From Catenulispora sp. EB89 (GTDB lineage: Bacteria; Actinomycetota; Actinomycetes; Streptomycetales; Catenulisporaceae): a stretch of 64,000 nucleotides of DNA. Numbering within the stretch: the stretch's first letter is position 1; each line of letters begins with the position of its first letter. A model generated the notes under the pieces. The model did no database searches and was not told the origin of the DNA. It was given only the letters and a program-made list of their open reading frames with translations. Of this stretch, positions 1 to 19,430 are shown in pieces. The stretch is taken from positions 372,001-436,000 of the forward strand of contig NZ_JBGCCU010000006.1 in NCBI RefSeq assembly GCF_041261445.1, in the 5' to 3' direction. Made by a program: the position numbers and the translations under genes.

Positions 1-713
1 TTCTGCCGGTTCGCACCCTCCACCAGGCTGATCATCCGGTCGATGAAGGTCTCGCCGGGCTTGGACGTGATCTTCACGACGATCCGGTCGGAGAGCACCT
101 TGGTACCGCCGGTCACCGCCGAGCGGTCACCGCCGGACTCCCGGATGACCGGGGCCGACTCGCCGGTGATCGCCGACTCGTCCACCGAGGCCACACCCTC
201 GACGACGTCACCGTCGCCGGGGATGACCTGGCCGGCCTCGACGACCACGTAGTCGCCGAGCTTCAGCTCGGTGCCGGGGACCTCGGTGACCTCACCGGAG
301 ACGCCGGCCGCGCCGGAGACACCCGGAGTCCAGGACGCCAGGCGCCGCGCGATGGTCGTGGTCTTGGCCTTGCGCAGGGTGGCGGCCTGCGCCTTGCCGC
401 GGCCCTCGGCCACCGCCTCGGCCAGGTTGGCGAACACCACGGTCAGCCACAGCCAGACGGTGATGACCCAGGCGAACACCGAGGGCTTGGTGATGGCCTC
501 GTACGTGGTCAGCGCGGAGCCGACCTCGACGACGAACATCACCGGGTTCTTCATCATGACCCGGGGGTCGAGCTTCTTCAGGGCGTCCGGAAGCGACTTC
601 CAGAGCATCTTCGGATCGAGGAACCCACCGCCCACGCGGTGCGGTTCGCCGCCCGGCTTCTGCTGCGGGGCCCGCGGCGCGGGGGCAGCTTCAGTCAGAG
701 TGTTGCTTGACAT
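1..713 (-). CDS. kdpB: Potassium-transporting ATPase subunit KdpB (N-terminal part)
   Basis: This is the catalytic P-type ATPase subunit of the KdpFABC high-affinity potassium pump, which hydrolyses ATP to drive uptake through KdpA. About 237 residues are visible from ATG 713 before the window edge cuts the gene. They include two N-terminal membrane segments and the actuator domain, with the ITGESAPV motif (the TGES loop needed for dephosphorylation) followed by SGGDRSAVTGGT. The DKTGT phosphorylation site would lie beyond the edge. The start overlaps the kdpA stop as TGATG, so the two are translationally coupled. The identification is firm; only truncation by the window is notable. Confidence 0.97.
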   Translation of the reverse strand, partial: MSSNTLTEAAPAPRAPQQKPGGEPHRVGGGFLDPKMLWKSLPDALKKLDPRVMMKNPVMFVVEVGSALTTYEAITKPSVFAWVITVWLWLTVVFANLAEAVAEGRGKAQAATLRKAKTTTIARRLASWTPGVSGAAGVSGEVTEVPGTELKLGDYVVVEAGQVIPGDGDVVEGVASVDESAITGESAPVIRESGGDRSAVTGGTKVLSDRIVVKITSKPGETFIDRMISLVEGANRQ

Positions 714-2398
714 CAGTGCAGTCCTTCAGCGAGCGGCCCGAGCGACAGGGCCGGGAAGTAGGTGAGGCCGACCACCAGCAGGACGGTGCCCAGCAGCATC
801 GCCGCGAACAGCGGCGAGGCGGTCTTGAGCGTGCCCTCGGTCTCCGGCACCGGCTTCTGCTTGGCCAGCGAGCCGGCCAGCGCCAGAACCCAGATCATCG
901 GCAGGAACCGGCCGAACATCATGGCCAGCGCGCCGGCGGTGTTCCACCAGTGGGTGTTTCCGGACAGGCCGCCGAACGCCGAGCCGTTGTTGTTGCCCAT
1001 CGAGGTGAAGGCGTACAACACCTCACTGAAGCCGTGTGGCGATGGACTTCCGTTGGGCCCCAGGTTGCCGCTGCTGATCGAGGCTGTCTCACCCTTCAGG
1101 GCCATGGCCAGACCGGTGAAGATCAGCACCACGGCGGGGGTCGTCAGGATGTACAGCGCCGCGTACTTCATCTCGGCCGGGCGGATCTTCTTGCCCAGGT
1201 ACTCCGGCGTGCGGCCGACCATCAGACCGGCGATGAACACCGTGACGATGGCCAGGATCAGAATGCCGTAAAGCCCTGAGCCGGTGCCGCCGGGCGCGAT
1301 CTCACCGAGCATCATGTTGAACATGGCCGCACCGCCGCCGAACGGCGAATACGAGTCGTGCCAGGAGTTGACGGCACCGGTCGAGGTCAGCGTCGTACTG
1401 GTCATGAACAGGGTCGAGGCCGGGATGCCGAACCTGGACTCCTTGCCCTCCAGCGCGGCATGGCCGTCGGCGAGGTTGATGCCGTGGTGGTGGACCTCGA
1501 AGAAGGTCGAGAACGCCAGCGAGCCGATCCAGATGATCGCCATCACCGACAGGATCGTGTAGCCCTGCCGGTGCGAGCCGACCATCTTGCCGAAGGTGCG
1601 CGGCAGCGCGAAGCCGATGACCAGCAGCAGGTAGATCTCGATCAGGTTCGTGAACGAGGAGGGGTTCTCGAACGGATGCGCGCTGTTGGCGTTGAAGATG
1701 CCGCCGCCGTTGGTGCCGAGCTCCTTGATGACCTCCTGGGAGGCGGTGGCGCCGGTGTACAGGCTCTGGTCGCCGTTGATCGTGTGCACCACGGTCAGGT
1801 GGCTGGACAGCTCCTGCGTGGCCCCGCACGCGACCAGGATGATCGCGAACACGATCGAGAACGGCAGCATCAGGCGGAGCAGCACCCGGGTAAGGTCCAC
1901 CCAGAAGTTGCCGAGGCGGTCGGTCTTGCTGCGCGTGAAGCCGCGGATCAGGGTCGCGACCACGGCGATGCCGACCGAGGCCGACACGAAGTTCTGCACC
2001 GCCAGGCCCGTCGCCTGCGCGACGTAGCCCAGCGTGTTCTCGCCGGCGTAGTTCTGCCAGTTGGTGTTCGTGACGAAGGACGCGGCCGTGTTGTAGGCCA
2101 GGTCGGCGTTCATCTTCGGCATGCCCAGCGCCATCATCAGGTGGTGCTGGACCCGCAGCAGCAGGTACAGGAGCAGGACCCCGACGGCGGAGATGGCGAA
2201 CACCGAACGCAGGTACGTACCCCACGTCTGGTCCGCCTCGGAATCCACGCCCATCGTCTTGTACAGGACCTTCTCCACCCGAAGATGCTTCTTCGAGGTG
2301 AGAATGTGCGCCATGTAGTCCCCCAGCGGCCGGTAGGACACGGCCAGCAGGAGGACCAGGGCGGCGACTTGGAGCAAGCCGGCCCAGGTGTCCGACAT
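713..2398 (-). CDS. kdpA: Potassium-transporting ATPase subunit KdpA
   Basis: This is the channel-like potassium-binding subunit of KdpFABC in the cytoplasmic membrane. The 561-residue length is normal for the family and the protein has about ten membrane segments. The four selectivity-filter loops of the SKT superfamily fold can be seen: TNTNWQNYAGE, TNGGGIFNAN, TSTGAVNSW and TSMGNNNGSAFGG. It sits between kdpF and kdpB with one-base TGATG overlaps on both sides, the usual kdpFAB layout. Expression is expected to follow KdpD/KdpE, encoded about 5 kb to the right on the other strand. Confidence 0.98.
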   Translation of the reverse strand: MSDTWAGLLQVAALVLLLAVSYRPLGDYMAHILTSKKHLRVEKVLYKTMGVDSEADQTWGTYLRSVFAISAVGVLLLYLLLRVQHHLMMALGMPKMNADLAYNTAASFVTNTNWQNYAGENTLGYVAQATGLAVQNFVSASVGIAVVATLIRGFTRSKTDRLGNFWVDLTRVLLRLMLPFSIVFAIILVACGATQELSSHLTVVHTINGDQSLYTGATASQEVIKELGTNGGGIFNANSAHPFENPSSFTNLIEIYLLLVIGFALPRTFGKMVGSHRQGYTILSVMAIIWIGSLAFSTFFEVHHHGINLADGHAALEGKESRFGIPASTLFMTSTTLTSTGAVNSWHDSYSPFGGGAAMFNMMLGEIAPGGTGSGLYGILILAIVTVFIAGLMVGRTPEYLGKKIRPAEMKYAALYILTTPAVVLIFTGLAMALKGETASISSGNLGPNGSPSPHGFSEVLYAFTSMGNNNGSAFGGLSGNTHWWNTAGALAMMFGRFLPMIWVLALAGSLAKQKPVPETEGTLKTASPLFAAMLLGTVLLVVGLTYFPALSLGPLAEGLH

Positions 2399-2487
2399 CA
2401 GAACTTCTCCGGGAGGATCAGGGCCGCTATGAGGTAGCCGACCAGCAGGACCGACACGATCAGGCCGATGATGTTCTCAGCGCTCAA
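2398..2487 (-). CDS. kdpF: KdpF small membrane subunit
   Basis: This 29-residue single-span protein begins MSAENIIGL from a TTG codon and ends LPEKF, the usual ending of actinobacterial KdpF. KdpF stabilises the KdpABC complex in the membrane. The TTG start is chosen because it gives the family-typical N-terminus. The reading frame overlaps the end of the preceding peptide gene by 11 bases and its own stop overlaps the kdpA start (TGATG). Such tight overlaps imply coupled translation from one message. Confidence 0.88.
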   Translation of the reverse strand: MSAENIIGLIVSVLLVGYLIAALILPEKF

Positions 2488-2566
2488 GACGCTCGACCCC
2501 CTTGATGATCAACGCGAGAAGGGCGAAGAACGCGATCGTGATCCCGACGAAAATCACGTCGGCCAT
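2477..2566 (-). CDS. 29-residue membrane peptide heading the kdp operon
   Basis: A short frame starts at ATG 2566 behind a good ribosome site (AAGGAG, 7 bases upstream). It encodes a peptide beginning MADVIFVG, continuing as one hydrophobic helix (about residues 4-21) and ending KGVERLER. It overlaps kdpF by 11 bases, so kdpF translation probably depends on it. Its size and shape are like KdpF itself, which suggests a second tiny subunit or a duplicated KdpF. I believe similar peptides precede kdpF in other actinobacteria, but no function is assigned. The strong ribosome site and coupling make it very likely translated. Confidence 0.75.
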   Translation of the reverse strand: MADVIFVGITIAFFALLALIIKGVERLER

Positions 2567-2768
2567 CAGGTGCTCCTTGGATTCGAGGACGGGGTTACGC
2601 AGATCAGTGAAGCCGCCGGGAGCGCGCGTGCCGGGTGCGCAAGCGCGATGCAAACGGACCCGGCACGGATGCGCACACGGTCCAAACATGCAGGTCCGTA
2701 GTCGCTCGCCTACTATCCGTGAAGTGCCTGTTCCTGACTTTCCGTGAGACATCAGGTGAGTGCAAACC
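2567..2768. promoter_or_regulatory. Divergent promoter region of kdp operon and amidohydrolase
   Basis: This is a 200-base intergenic stretch between divergent genes. It contains GATGCAAACG at 2647-2656, which recurs upstream of kdpD at 7133-7142, so it may be a KdpE-binding element. Exact promoter boxes are not clear. The amidohydrolase ribosome site AGGTGAG lies at 2754-2760, eight bases before ATG 2769. Confidence 0.45.
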
Positions 2769-4424
2769 ATGAGCGACATAACGGTGATCCGGCACGCCGA
2801 TCTGATCTTGCGCGGCGGCCGTGTGCACACGCTGGACGCCGCCGACACCGTGGTCTCGTCGCTGGCCGTGGCCGACGGGGTCGTCGCGGCGGTCGGCGAC
2901 GACCGGGAGACCGCGGCGCTGCTCGGCCCGGACACCGAGGTGCGGGACCTGGAGGGCCGCACGGTCGTCCCCGGCCTGCACGACTCGCACCTGCACCTGG
3001 CCGATGCCGGCAACAGCTGGAACCTGCAGGTGCGCTGGGACGGCGTGCCGTCCCTGGCCGACGCGCTGCGCCTGCTCGCGGTCCGGGCCGCCGAGGCCGC
3101 CCCCGGCCAGTGGGTGCGGGTGGTCGGCGGCTGGTCCGACTCCCAGTTCGCCGAGCACCGGCTGCCCACGCTCGCGGAGATCGAGTCGGTGTCGGCGGAC
3201 GTGCCGGTGCTGGTGGTCTTCCTGGACACCGCGGCTTTCCTGAATCGGGCCGCGCTGCGGGCCCTGGGCTACGACAAGTCCACGCCGGACCCGCCCGGCG
3301 GCGAGATCCAGCGGGACGCGTCGGGGAACCCCACCGGGCTGCTCATCGCCCGGCCGAGCCCTGCGGTGCTGGCACTGGCCATCCTCGGGGCGCCGCGGCT
3401 GGCGCCGGACGAGCGGGTGAACTCCACACGCCGGTTCCTGGGCGAGCTGAGCCGGCGCGGGGTGACCGGTGTGATCGACGCTGGGGCGACCGACTTCGGG
3501 GTGAGCAGCGTCCCCGACTGCTACGACGCGCTGCGGACGCTGCGTGCGCAGAACCGCTTGTGCGTGCGGACGGCGCTGAACGTGTCGGCCTCCCGGCCCG
3601 GCGAGGAGCGCGAGGAGCTGGCCACGCTGCTCCGGGGCCTGAACTTCGGCGGCGACGACATGCTGTGGTTCAACGGGGTCGGCGAGGGGCTGGCGCTGGA
3701 CGGCATGGACTCCTCGAACTTCGCGGAGCCACGTCCGGAGCTGCCCGGCGAGCTGGGACGGCACCTGGAGCCGGTGGTGCGGCTGCTGGTGGAGAACCGG
3801 TGGCCGTTCACCTTCCACGCCACCTTCGACGAGACGATCGTCCGGTTCCTCGGGGTGCTGGAGACGGTGAACCGCGACGTCCCCTTCGACGGCCTGCGCT
3901 GGGCCGTGGAGCACGCCGAGACCATCCGGCCGGAGACCATCGACCGGGTGGCGGCGCTCGGCGGCGGGATCACGGTGCAGCACCGGATGGCCTACCGGGG
4001 CGAGCGGTTCCTGAAGCGCTACGGGCCCGAGGCGGCCCGGCACGTGCAGCCGGTGATGGAGATGCTGACCCGCGGCGTGCCGGTCGGCGGCGGCACCGAC
4101 GGCACCTGGCTGGCCGACGCCAACCCCTGGGGCGCGCTGCGCTGGTTCACGACCGGCACCACCCTCGGCGGGCTGGAGATGTGGCGTCCGGAGGACCGGC
4201 TGGACCGCACGCTGGCGCTGCGGCTGTTCACCGAGGGCAGCGCGTGGTTCGCCGGCGACCAGCGGCGACGCGGCACGCTGGAGCCGGGGATGCTCGCGGA
4301 CTTCGCGGTGCTGTCAGGGGACTACTTCAGCGTTCCCGAGGCCGAGATGGCCGACCTGGAGTCGGTGTTGACCGTGGTCGGCGGCAAGGTCGTGTACGAG
4401 GGCGGCCCCTTCGCGGCGCGGTAA
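2769..4424 (+). CDS. Amidohydrolase family protein (YtcJ-like, amidohydrolase 3)
   Basis: This is a 551-residue metal-dependent hydrolase of the TIM-barrel amidohydrolase superfamily, YtcJ-like branch. The protein opens with the small beta domain, then the metal-binding DSHLH motif (His74 and His76). Near the C-terminus the GGTDGTW segment supplies the usual metal-site Asp, and the last 60 residues complete the beta domain. The length matches the family (about 530-560). ATG 2769 is chosen over an upstream GTG because AGGTGAG is correctly spaced. The substrate cannot be told from sequence; members act on amides and cyclic imides. It stands alone, divergent from kdp, and ends before a terminator hairpin. 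Confidence 0.88.
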   Translation: MSDITVIRHADLILRGGRVHTLDAADTVVSSLAVADGVVAAVGDDRETAALLGPDTEVRDLEGRTVVPGLHDSHLHLADAGNSWNLQVRWDGVPSLADALRLLAVRAAEAAPGQWVRVVGGWSDSQFAEHRLPTLAEIESVSADVPVLVVFLDTAAFLNRAALRALGYDKSTPDPPGGEIQRDASGNPTGLLIARPSPAVLALAILGAPRLAPDERVNSTRRFLGELSRRGVTGVIDAGATDFGVSSVPDCYDALRTLRAQNRLCVRTALNVSASRPGEEREELATLLRGLNFGGDDMLWFNGVGEGLALDGMDSSNFAEPRPELPGELGRHLEPVVRLLVENRWPFTFHATFDETIVRFLGVLETVNRDVPFDGLRWAVEHAETIRPETIDRVAALGGGITVQHRMAYRGERFLKRYGPEAARHVQPVMEMLTRGVPVGGGTDGTWLADANPWGALRWFTTGTTLGGLEMWRPEDRLDRTLALRLFTEGSAWFAGDQRRRGTLEPGMLADFAVLSGDYFSVPEAEMADLESVLTVVGGKVVYEGGPFAAR

Positions 4425-4476
4425 TCACGTGGTTCTACGGGTTCGCGGCTGATCGGCTCTGCCTAGCGTTGTGGAC

Positions 4477-4498
4477 GCCCCACCGAGGGGGGTGGGGC
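4477..4498 (+). terminator. Hairpin after the amidohydrolase
   Basis: GCCCCACC (4477-4484) pairs with GGTGGGGC (4491-4498) around a six-base loop. It lies 53 bases after the amidohydrolase stop. There is no real T-run, as is common for actinobacterial terminators. Confidence 0.5.
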
Positions 4499-4525
4499 AT
4501 TCCGAGCATGTGGGGGGAACCATCA

Positions 4526-5008
4526 ATGCACTGTCGTCGATTCGCGGTCGCGGCCGCCGTCATCGCGCTGCCTTTCGCGCTGACCGCCTGCTCGTCGAGC
4601 GGGACCAGCGGCACCGGCGGGACCGGCGGGTCCGGGCCGCTCGGGGCTGTCGGGCAGAAGACCGTCCAGCTGAACCCGCCGGCGACCGCCGGCACACCCT
4701 CGGCTTCCCAGAGCCTGGTCGCGTCCTCGGCGTTCTGTGCGGCCATAGCCAAAGCCAGCGACGACTCGGCCAAGCAGGACGCGGGTGACACCAGCATCAC
4801 CAACGCGACCGCCATCGCGGATATGGAGGCCGCCCTCGCCGCCGCCCCAGCCCCGGTCAAGAACGACATGCAGACCATCGTCGACGCGGGGCGCACGGCT
4901 ATCGCGAACGGCCAGGACATCAACTCCGGCCAGAACGTCAGCCCGGAGGCCGACGCGGCCGGGGACCGCGTGCTCAGCTGGGCCTCCGCCAACTGCACCT
5001 TCCACTAG
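4526..5008 (+). CDS. Small secreted lipoprotein of unknown function
   Basis: This 160-residue protein has a lipoprotein signal: charged start MHCRRF, hydrophobic core, then lipobox LTAC with the lipidated Cys22. A Ser/Gly/Thr-rich linker follows, then a compact helical domain of about 100 residues with two Cys (FCAAI and the final NCTF), which could form a disulphide outside the membrane. GGGGGAA upstream supports ATG 4526. The gene is convergent with lysA, seven bases apart. I do not recognise the domain; small lipoproteins of this design are common and mostly uncharacterised in actinobacteria. Confidence 0.8.
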   Translation: MHCRRFAVAAAVIALPFALTACSSSGTSGTGGTGGSGPLGAVGQKTVQLNPPATAGTPSASQSLVASSAFCAAIAKASDDSAKQDAGDTSITNATAIADMEAALAAAPAPVKNDMQTIVDAGRTAIANGQDINSGQNVSPEADAAGDRVLSWASANCTFH

Positions 5009-5015
5009 TCCGCCG

Positions 5016-6392
5016 CTACAGGCTCACATCGCGCGCCTGCAGGTCCTCCAGCGTCTCGCGCCGTATCAGGACCCTGGCGACCCCGTCGCGGACCGCGATC
5101 ACCGGCGGGCGGCAGACCTGGTTGTAGGTCGAGGCCATCGAGTGCTGGTACGCGCCGGTGCACGGGACCGCGAGCAGGTCGCCGGGGCGCAGGTCGGAGG
5201 GCAGCGGCAGGTCGTGCGCGATGACGTCGCCGGCCTCGCAGTGCCGGCCGACGACGGTCATCGGCTCGGTCGGGGCGGTGGAGGAGCGGCCGATGAGGCG
5301 TGCGGTGTAGGCGGAGCCGTAGAGGGCGGGGCGCGGGTTGTCGCTCATGCCGCCGTCGACCGCGACGAAGGTCCTGACACCGGGGATGCGCTTCATCGTC
5401 AGCACCCGGTACAGGGTCACGCCGGCGCGCGCCACGATCGCGCGGCCGGGCTCGACGGTCAGCTTGGGCACCGGGAGCCGGTGCTGGCGGCAGGCTTTGG
5501 CGATCACGGTGCGGACCGTGCGCGCGTACAGGTCCAGATCGAAGTCGGGGTCGCCGTCGCGATAGCCGACCGCGTGGCCGCCGCCGAGGTCAAGTTCGGG
5601 GACGGTGACGCGGTACTCGTCGCGGATCCACGCCATCAGCGCGATCAGGCGGCGGGCGGCCTCGGCGAAGACGTCGACGGAGGTGATCTGGCTGCCGAGG
5701 TGGCAGTGCAGGCCGGCGAGTTCCAGGGCGGGCTTGTCGGCCAGCTGCCAGTGCAGCACCTGGCGGACCGCGTCGGCCGCCGCGCCGGTGGACAGCGAGA
5801 ACCCGAACTTCTGGTCCTCGACGCCGGTCGCGACCGCCTTGTGGGTGTGCGCGTCGACGCCCGGCGTGACGCGGATCAGCACCTTCTGCGGGTGACCCGC
5901 GTGCGCGGCGACCGCGAGCTGCGTGATCTCGTACGTGGAGTCCACCACGACGCGCCCGACGCCGTAGGCCAGCGCGTCCTGCACGTCGCGCGGCGTCTTG
6001 GCGTTGCCGTGCAGCACGATGCGCTCGGCCGGGAAGCCGACGTGGCGGGCCAGCGCGAGCTCGCCGCCGGAGCAGACGTCCAGGGACAGTCCCTCGTCCT
6101 GGATCCAGCTGATCATCGCGCGGCAGAGGAAGGCCTTGCCGGCATAGGCGATCTCAGCTTCGGGCAGAGCGGCACGATAGGCGCGGGCCCGGGCACGCAC
6201 GTCGGCCTCGTCCAGGACGTAGGCGGGGGTGCCGTAGGTCGCGGCGATCTCCGCCAGCCGGACGCCGCCGACCGCCAGATCCTCCTCACCGGTGGCAGTG
6301 GGTGAAGAAGGGGTCTTCGTCGGGGTCGCCAGGCCGGTGGTCGTCAGCGGCCACGGAGTCGTCTCGGCGGACAACCGCAGTCGGTTCGTCAT
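5016..6392 (-). CDS. lysA: Diaminopimelate decarboxylase (LysA-type PLP enzyme)
   Basis: This is a fold-III PLP decarboxylase that would convert meso-diaminopimelate to L-lysine. It is 458 residues from ATG 6392. Lys86 in AYAGKAFLC is the Schiff-base lysine. The HCHLGSQ, GGGHAVGY and EPGRAIVA segments and a terminal Y-N-x-x-CRPPVIAV region match the family. The segment WPLTT...VGGV...YGTPAYVLDE is typical of the longer actinobacterial LysA form, which supports a start upstream of VGGV. No clear ribosome site precedes ATG 6392. It is downstream of the SAV_915-like gene on the same strand. A second, non-lysine role for this paralogous type is possible. Confidence 0.9.
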   Translation of the reverse strand: MTNRLRLSAETTPWPLTTTGLATPTKTPSSPTATGEEDLAVGGVRLAEIAATYGTPAYVLDEADVRARARAYRAALPEAEIAYAGKAFLCRAMISWIQDEGLSLDVCSGGELALARHVGFPAERIVLHGNAKTPRDVQDALAYGVGRVVVDSTYEITQLAVAAHAGHPQKVLIRVTPGVDAHTHKAVATGVEDQKFGFSLSTGAAADAVRQVLHWQLADKPALELAGLHCHLGSQITSVDVFAEAARRLIALMAWIRDEYRVTVPELDLGGGHAVGYRDGDPDFDLDLYARTVRTVIAKACRQHRLPVPKLTVEPGRAIVARAGVTLYRVLTMKRIPGVRTFVAVDGGMSDNPRPALYGSAYTARLIGRSSTAPTEPMTVVGRHCEAGDVIAHDLPLPSDLRPGDLLAVPCTGAYQHSMASTYNQVCRPPVIAVRDGVARVLIRRETLEDLQARDVSL

Positions 6393-15666: not shown

Positions 15667-18549
<2,883 letters not shown>

Positions 18550-18596
18550 TGTCGTCTCAGTCCTCGGGATACGTCTGATGGTCTGTGCTGGAAATG

Positions 18597-18669
18597 AAAA
18601 AGCCCCTCGCGCATGGAGGGGAGCCGCGCTGACCGGAGCCTGTGGCGGCTCCGTCCTGTTTCAGCGCGG
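18597..18669 (-). promoter_or_regulatory. Leucine attenuator of leuS (competing stems and terminator)
   Basis: On the minus strand three mutually exclusive structures are visible. The terminator is CCCCTC (18616-18621) pairing with GAGGGG (18603-18608), followed by TTTTT (18597-18601). The antiterminator is GGAGCCGC (18645-18652) pairing with GCGGCTCC (18620-18627), which takes bases from the terminator arm. The protector pairs CCGCGCTGA (18661-18669, the end of the leader peptide frame) with TCAGCGCGG (18624-18632), enclosing GGAGCC/GGCTCC (18647-18652 with 18635-18640). A ribosome stalled on the Leu codons would block the protector and favour antitermination. Pairings are seen in the sequence; the mechanism is inferred from classical attenuators. 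Confidence 0.8.
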
Positions 18670-18699
18670 CGACATAAGAAGCAGCGTCACAGCCCGCAT
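18661..18699 (-). CDS. leuS leader peptide (three consecutive Leu codons)
   Basis: This is a 12-codon frame, MRAVTLLLMSPR, with Leu codons CTG-CTT-CTT at positions 6-8. CTT is rare in such a GC-rich genome, which would increase sensitivity to tRNA-Leu supply. The stop codon lies in the left arm of the protector stem. No good ribosome site is seen, but TACCCT lies seven bases before the ATG and could be a -10 box, giving a leaderless message. The terminator and leuS follow at 60 and 110 bases. Confidence 0.72.
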   Translation of the reverse strand: MRAVTLLLMSPR

Positions 18700-18737
18700 A
18701 CCCCAAGGGTACCAGCGCCGCCTCCGAGATATCGGCC

Positions 18738-19430
18738 CTACCTGCGGACCAGGCCGAGCACCAGCAGGATCTGCGCCAGGTGGTAGGTGACGATGATCGG
18801 GACGTCCAGCTCCCAGTCCTTGCGGACGAAGCGGGTCCAGCCGATCATCGCGTCGGAGACGGCGAACAGCAGCGCGCCGGGGATGATGCGCAGGTCGCCG
18901 GTCCACCACGCCGCGACCACCATCAGCGAGATGACCGTGACGTAGGCCAGGACGGGGACGGCGAGGGCGGGATCTTCGTCCTTCGCGGCGGCACGGATCG
19001 GCAGCCCCACGGTCGCGAACAGCGCGCCGGCCAGGACTAGGCCGGTGATGACGAAGGAGATCGCGTAGCCGGCGTGCGCGTGCAGGCGGACGAAGGCGGC
19101 TATGTACGCGACGTGTGCGAGCAGGAAGGCGCCCAGGCCGAGCACGAAGTTCCGGTCGGCCGACGCGGAGTCCTCCGGCAGCATCAGGAAGACGTCACCG
19201 ACCAGGCTCAGGACCAGGGCCGCGACCATGGTCACGACCAGGTAGGCCGGAGCGTGCTGCGCGTGCGCGATGGCCAGGGCCGCGGCGATCAGCGCGACCA
19301 TGGTCAGCGGCTTGGCGACGTACTCCGCACGGCGCGCACCCGCCGACGCCGGGTCCATGGCACGCCGGGAGACGGCGGTCCAGTCGGCGAAGGCCACCAC
19401 GAAGGTCAGCAGGGTCAGCGTCAGAGGCAC
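18738..19430 (-). CDS. Lysoplasmalogenase family (YhhN) membrane protein
   Basis: This 230-residue integral membrane protein has seven to eight helices and the YhhN/TMEM86 signatures: KPLTM in the second helix region, LVGDVFLMLP, GALLFAVSDAMIGWTRF and the terminal YHLAQ. Mammalian TMEM86B and some bacterial homologues hydrolyse the vinyl-ether bond of lysoplasmalogens; the activity in actinobacteria is unproven. The conserved Asp residues (GD, SD) that are the likely catalytic groups are present. It ends 38 bases before the leuS leader peptide start and points the same way, so some read-through into the attenuator is possible. Confidence 0.88.
   Translation of the reverse strand: MPLTLTLLTFVVAFADWTAVSRRAMDPASAGARRAEYVAKPLTMVALIAAALAIAHAQHAPAYLVVTMVAALVLSLVGDVFLMLPEDSASADRNFVLGLGAFLLAHVAYIAAFVRLHAHAGYAISFVITGLVLAGALFATVGLPIRAAAKDEDPALAVPVLAYVTVISLMVVAAWWTGDLRIIPGALLFAVSDAMIGWTRFVRKDWELDVPIIVTYHLAQILLVLGLVRR

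Follow-up and report, generated by a model that had tools for sequence, protein, structure and literature searches.

The leuS gene in the window (the whole stretch of 64,000 nucleotides analysed here, from a genome of 11.9 Mb) is preceded by a putative leucine-responsive, ribosome-mediated attenuator, which we take, at a probability of about 0.85 and as judged from sequence, to be the Catenulispora copy of the actinobacterial leuL-leuS attenuator. The kind is already known from Streptomyces, and the window adds a new Catenulispora member. Passages of Seliverstov et al. (2005; PMC1262725) predict attenuators of the classical type upstream of leuS in S. avermitilis and S. coelicolor, and a passage on S. 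lividans RNA-seq lists LeuL2 before leuS as leaderless and followed by a hairpin and a U-stretch (PMC8079986). The present analysis adds the spread of the element through the class and the lack of a conserved form of the textbook switch in which two structures share bases. A sequence-only reading of the same DNA had put forward attenuation with no mention of the 2005 prediction or the S. lividans listing; its idea holds up. Ribosome-mediated attenuation is the best reading of the conserved Leu codons, their spacing, a helix (P1) and an intrinsic terminator (T), while the antiterminator proposed with it does not stand.

The leader, its predicted promoter and RNA structure at leuS

The features of the locus are collected in Table 1. 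The leader ORF runs on the minus strand from an ATG at 18699 through 12 codons to a TGA at 18663-18661 and places a run of Leu codons directly upstream of leuS, just as the sequence-only reading had described it, with CTG-CTT-CTT at 18684-18676. That reading had also called CTT rare in this genome, in agreement with its share of 1 in 283 Leu codons in the five window ORFs taken as genes. The leuS product matched TIGR00396 (leuS_bact) with 888 bits, exceeding the cut-off, and contains the Pfam editing domain PF13603; its ATG lies 47 nt downstream of the terminator. A YhhN-family gene on the same strand ends upstream at 18738.

Table 1. Coordinates of the predicted leuS attenuator and its surroundings in the window
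Feature	Position	Strand	Basis
-10 element TACCCT	18706..18711	-	Predicted transcription start is the A of the leader ATG (leaderless)
Leader ORF leuL, MRAVTLLLMSPR, stop TGA	18661..18699	-	Homologous leader in 60/60 order genomes (the window's own among them)
Regulatory Leu codons CTG CTT CTT	18676..18684	-	CTT bias and fixed distance to P1
P1 helix, 5' arm GCCGCGCTGA, overlapping the end of the leader ORF	18661..18670	-	Fold and covariation
P2 inner hairpin CGGAGCC/GGCTCCG, variable, missing in some relatives	18634..18653	-	Fold
P1 helix, 3' arm TCAGCGCGGC	18623..18632	-	Fold and covariation
Intrinsic terminator T, CCCCTC/GAGGGG stem (18621-18603), then CTTTTT	18597..18621	-	Fold; terminators in 60/60
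leuS, leucyl-tRNA synthetase, 960 aa, presumed regulated gene	15667..18549	-	TIGR00396, PF13603

A consensus promoter scan gave no -35/-10 pair at the leader. The motif TAnnnT appeared about 6 nt upstream of the leader start codon in all 60 rows from the order to which the window's genome belongs (57 in exact frame, three offset by one). With a predicted start at the ATG, the leader transcript is leaderless-looking; the homologous leader of S. lividans is leaderless according to a passage of PMC8079986.

Between the leader and leuS stands a hairpin followed by a U-run. The window fold has a z-score of -2.66, with 3 of 200 shuffles equally stable, and in its minimum-energy form P1, the inner hairpin and T are all present together. 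Two elements of the sequence-only reading were recovered here, its first pairing, CCGCGCTGA with TCAGCGCGG, which is P1, and its terminator, CCCCTC/GAGGGG at 18621-18603 followed by CTTTTT.

T-box leaders control synthetase genes by tRNA charging and are thus alike in the class of gene served. At this locus, positions 18400-18900 scanned against Rfam (E up to 5) gave no T-box match, and no family scored above threshold; the sole match was a sub-threshold Chlorobi-1 on the other strand. A T-box or any other Rfam family was rejected as the identity of the element, with nothing above threshold in that interval. Model R2, which consists of P1 and T only, found one strong match in the window's own genome; two weak matches (E 3.6 and 4.3) look coding by eye and were rejected as second copies.

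Conservation, spacing and spread

LeuS was present in all 60 order genomes searched, the window's genome included, and in all 60 leuS is preceded by a leaderless-looking leader ORF of 9-12 codons with two or three adjacent Leu codons. This is the conservation of Leu codons that the sequence-only reading had proposed to look for in an alignment of relatives. Three adjacent Leu codons occur in 59 of the 60 leaders and two in L020, which has lost one codon and retained the spacing from Leu to P1. The codon order is CTG-CTT-CTT in the window versus CTT-CTG-CTT in most other rows. All 60 genomes carry CCGCGCTGA where the ORF ends or immediately after it, together with a 3' arm of P1 and a terminator; two named Catenulispora records (L210 and L242) also carry the motif. 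On the order alignment A1 the inner hairpin P2 has 82.3% of its cells paired and includes two-sided changes. It is missing in L014, L033 and L034; because of these three, P2 is dispensable.

The peptide MRAVRLLLSEPR, identical in 28 of the 60 order genomes, is the LeuL2 peptide of S. lividans in the part of PMC8079986 that describes it. This identity favours a reading in which the ORF encodes a functional or arrest peptide, with the RNA features of secondary importance. We hold that reading to be very unlikely. Class-wide, residues 2-5 and the peptide length vary, but the run of Leu codons and the P1 arm are retained, and in 16 of 129 leaders, closed by a TAG immediately ahead of the arm, the arm follows the stop codon. 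Within the order, L010-L012 have a TAG ahead of CCGCGCTGA and keep CCGCGCTGA unchanged though untranslated, which suggests that the RNA arm rather than the peptide tail is under selection.

Spacing was analysed at 140 loci (60 from the order and 80 from the class), of which nine failed the start-codon or the terminator rule (L104, L109, L121, L127, L128, L131, L133, L140 and L169), leaving 131. Two more (L129 and L159), not shown to precede leuS, were set aside, giving n=129, and the fold and gap counts further omit L139 and L152, giving n=127. For spacing, P1 was searched within 7 nt of T, with its 5' start 2-9 nt behind the last Leu codon; for the gap counts the 3' arm was searched up to T without the 7-nt limit and with the same 5' start. 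Within the allowed 2-9 nt, the distance from the last Leu codon to the GCC of P1 was exactly 5 nt in 126 of 129 leaders. In two of the exceptions (L107 and L148) a CTT does stand at the usual 5-nt distance and is followed by one more Leu codon; the third (L152) is a failure of the P1 call. CTT is the last Leu codon of the run in 121 of the 129. The stop codon is a TGA at +5 codons in 102 leaders, a TAG at +2 in 16 and elsewhere in 11; the P1 arm stays put while the stop codon moves. An attenuator calls for a fixed distance from its regulatory codons to a helix arm, and this is what 126 of the 129 leaders display; the ribosome would presumably mask that arm.

Counted from the first base of the A-site codon, the ribosome footprint extends about 12 nt downstream. 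By this measure, a stall at either of the first two Leu codons of three would leave the P1 arm free, a ribosome on the third would cover the first few bases of the arm, and one at a stop at +2 or +5 would cover the arm. The geometry looks as if the position of the ribosome gated P1.

The order alignment says little about P1 itself; 99.8% of cells are paired among 58 distinct rows, and the 5' arm is invariant and so of little information. We therefore relied on a 73-row alignment (A2; 65 class and eight order loci, that is 73 of 75 references with L158 and L172 excluded). Over P1 and T, 10 of 15 pairs changed on both sides, in 74 cells, a count reached by none of 500 shuffles and compared with 3-12 cells in slid controls; the shuffles disregard relatedness, so the weight is carried by the slid controls and the variety of arms. 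P1 alone was paired in 97.0% of cells, with changes on both sides in 6 of 10 pairs, and T alone had such changes in 4 of its 5 counted pairs. Shuffling whole arms gave at most 265 of 300 paired cells versus 280 observed, there are 14 different 5' arms among 30 distinct arm pairs, and RNAalifold on the same alignment recovered P1 and part of T unprompted. Compensating changes, which the sequence-only reading had proposed to seek in three stems, are found for P1 and T on this alignment; for its second pairing, on the order alignment, they occur in 2 of 8 pairs.

Model R1 matched 162 of 394 class genomes, 40 of them from the order. R2 matched 217 of the 394, in 91 of 138 genera and again with 40 genomes from the order, and gave no match in the other 177; in a phylum sample it matched 32 of 396 genomes, comprising 12 from the order, seven from elsewhere in the class and 13 from outside the class. 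The 80 class loci beyond the order were picked from the listed R1 matches for family spread and are not a random sample. In 74 of them, covering 23 families beyond the order's three, tblastn placed LeuS downstream; at one of these, L119, the tblastn match is weak and the reading frame is LeuS by eye. The remaining six lead to ilvB (L127), citramalate synthase (L128 and L133) and leuC (L159), resemble L133 by eye (L140) or run off the contig (L129). Among 20 further R2 loci, eight precede leuS, five of these outside the class (L176-L180); the other 12 had no LeuS match and by eye mostly show ilvB-, isopropylmalate-synthase- or leuC-like genes downstream, the R2 match at L187 looking like chance. 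A motif scan of named genomes yielded 115 stretches. Among the 80 matches listed, 76 have LeuS directly downstream by a distance rule, three lie too close to the edge of the stretch, and at L215 LeuS follows just behind the motif and failed the rule. Genera with the motif include Kitasatospora, Amycolatopsis, Jiangella, Frankia, Actinomadura and Actinospica.

The same breadth bears on the simplest alternative, an ordinary terminator of the upstream YhhN-family gene joined by a chance ORF. T does share the strand of that gene and lies behind its end at 18738. The recurrence of the whole layout (leader, spacing, P1 and T) ahead of leuS in 27 class families, with covariation, leaves this explanation next to no likelihood.

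Outside leuS, a leader ORF and a P1-like helix, mostly with a terminator, stand before ilvB, citramalate synthase and leuC (L127, L128, L133, L140 and L159), and a similar layout was seen by eye at L181-L186 and L188-L192, including isopropylmalate-synthase-like genes. The downstream genes of L127, L128, L133 and L159 were checked against NCBIfam and the others assigned by eye. The codons of these non-leuS leaders are often Ile, Val or Leu, matching the pathway. One record labelled as a Chloroflexi MAG (L209, 470-518) carries the same attenuator and a LeuS of 64% identity, through either a binning error or a transfer.

A tree of N-terminal LeuS parts (81 of 83 rows, among them L154, probably in a wrong reading frame, and L180, on a long branch) separates two deeply divided types, and families f11, f21 and f22 contain both. 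The attenuator precedes both types. In Actinopolymorpha the two types of gene are neighbours in L258 and L264 and lie about 4 kb apart in L214. Each leuS of L264 (Actinopolymorpha pittospori, 564-5832) has an attenuator of its own; its window-type LeuS of 767 aa gave no Pfam match to the CP1 editing domain, which the neighbouring LeuS does match, and the tblastn matches of L214 and L258 hint at a CP1 gap there too. In a Micromonosporaceae MAG (L271), the LeuS matches leave 200 CP1 positions uncovered, possibly a loss of the editing domain. Genome G161 (f11) carries the other LeuS type at L168. By eye its promoter is nearly the same as that of L098, a window-type member of the family, and the leaders of the two are similar, which looks like an exchange of the coding region beneath an attenuator that stayed in place.

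P1, the terminator and the proposed antiterminator

P1 and T have no base in common in 118 of the 127 loci and one base in nine. The gap between them is 0-3 nt in 125 of 127, and both are present in the minimum-energy fold in 122. When the intervening stretch was shuffled, a helix of at least 8 bp arose in 113 of 2540 cases, with gaps spread over 0-55 nt.

The sequence-only reading had proposed two conserved, mutually exclusive pairings, the second of them, GGAGCCGC with GCGGCTCC, overlapping the terminator arm. These would make up a classical three-way attenuator, with an antiterminator built from bases of that arm. Its 8 bp can form in the window's genome and five others of the same genus, so that the pairing is confined to part of one genus and to 6 of 60 order genomes. 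The best pairing overlapping T is 2 bp in L004, which has the closest LeuS N-terminus, and 5-6 bp in L008, L010 and L012; outside the genus it reaches 2-7 bp. On the order alignment, the GGAGCCGC:GCGGCTCC columns do hold 20 cells changed on both sides, a figure matched by none of 500 shuffles and compared with 0-8 in slid controls, yet these cells fall in only 2 of 8 pairs, and 65.0% of cells are paired versus 94.2% for P1, P2 and T together. The column signal is taken to come from a short repeat common to the P2 3' arm and the P1-T junction. The inner hairpin is missing in L014, L033 and L034, and in the window fold P1, the inner hairpin and T form side by side rather than exclude one another. 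Although its columns beat shuffles on some measures, the GGAGCCGC:GCGGCTCC antiterminator was rejected as limited to a genus, on the complementarity of each sequence and the column counts, and we consider the three-way design improbable.

An antiterminator sharing bases with the terminator was likewise not found in conserved form when 127 loci were folded. With the transcript folded without the T 3' arm, the T 5' arm was paired upstream with a mean probability of 0.03 when P1 could form and 0.32 when the P1 arm was masked, as by a ribosome at the stop codon (n=127). Upstream pairing exceeded 0.5 in 1 of 127 loci with P1 possible and in 23 of 127 with the arm masked. Folding thus reveals no helix upstream that would regularly capture the terminator arm while P1 can form, and any helix sequestering the T 5' arm was rejected, with a single locus above 0.5 when P1 can form.

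A possible mechanism and its relation to known attenuators

For the leuS attenuator we propose the following course of events. Transcription would start at the leader ATG, as predicted from the -10 motif, and a ribosome would load on the leaderless RNA and trail RNA polymerase. With ample charged tRNA-Leu, the ribosome would reach the leader stop and cover the 5' arm of P1, so that P1 could not form and T would end transcription near 18597. With charged tRNA-Leu scarce, the ribosome would stall on CTG-CTT-CTT and leave the arm free; P1 would then form against the base of T, keep T from closing in the RNA exit channel and allow leuS to be transcribed. With a helix starting 0-3 nt from the base of T, closing of T would require that this helix be pulled into the exit channel, which we propose to be impossible. 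The leucine response, the direction of the switch and exclusion by crowding are all inferred. If P1 is gated by the ribosome and starvation is to raise leuS, both of which we assume, P1 must act against T by some means other than competition for bases. Crowding as the way in which P1 blocks T is plausible at somewhat less than even odds. Taken by itself, the folding of naked RNA speaks for the opposite direction, for thermodynamically P1 clears the way for T.

The same naked-RNA result, in which P1 frees the T 5' arm, would suit a P1 that acts as a pause hairpin of the his or trp type, timing polymerase and ribosome, or as a helper that strengthens T, with the switch being kinetic. In hairpin-stabilised pauses, 10-11 nt is near the known spacing, and a TG step follows P1 at 10 nt in 86 of 127 loci, at 11 nt in 25 and at 12 nt in 59, an entry being counted more than once where it has several. 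The position of TG is partly fixed by the length of the T arm, and the tally has no comparison set of other terminators. Were P1 merely to help T, leuS should fall under leucine starvation, presumably the opposite of what a synthetase gene needs. We regard this pause or helper role as possible but rather unlikely. As an observation by itself, TG keeps to 10 nt behind P1 in those 86 loci despite varying linker and arm lengths and is perhaps a pause site.

More tentatively than crowding at leuS itself, attenuators of the Actinomycetota could share a layout in which a ribosome-gated P1 abuts the base of the terminator, shares no base with it and blocks its closing in the RNA exit channel, the same for leuS of two deeply diverged LeuS types and, by similarity, for ilvB, citramalate synthase and leuC.

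In the trp and his attenuators of E. coli, as here, the position of a ribosome on a codon-biased leader controls a terminator. They do so through an antiterminator made from part of the terminator, whereas no such shared-base antiterminator is conserved in the leuS leaders. The Streptomyces leuS attenuator, in the passages describing it, agrees with the window's in gene, 12-codon leader, three Leu codons, hairpin and U-run, and differs in its leader, MRAVRLLLSEPR versus MRAVTLLLMSPR. Attenuation of ilvB1 in M. tuberculosis is supported by the part of PMC13236596 that treats it. As here, it features a leader ORF with regulatory codons, a terminator and a gate that a ribosome at the stop codon is proposed to operate. 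It concerns other amino acids and genes, and mutually exclusive folds are proposed for ilvB1, whereas in 118 of the 127 leuS loci P1 and T have no base in common. The ilvB, citramalate-synthase and leuC matches of this analysis resemble the ilvB attenuators by eye.

Passages of PMC4833913, PMC4046766 and PMC3896937 describe no leuS attenuator, and the main text of a paper on premature transcription units in S. clavuligerus (PMC8269248) does not contain the word leuS. A 2016 paper with some of the authors of the 2005 prediction describes, in the part concerned, a model of S. venezuelae trpE attenuation in which a response to tryptophanyl-tRNA appears only once RNA triplexes are included. Because that model needs triplexes, standard folding may, as this suggests, miss something in such leaders. 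Neither the class-wide spread nor the non-overlapping layout of P1 and T was found described in the literature covered, which lay mostly outside subscription journals.

The analysis exposes a mechanistic gap, in that no base-sharing antiterminator is conserved, and it provides a covariance model for an element that has no Rfam name at this place. Relatives offer natural variants with moved stop codons, absent inner hairpins and paired leuS genes. The spread of the element points to leucine-responsive attenuation as a common control of leuS across the class Actinomycetes, and not as a peculiarity of Streptomyces.
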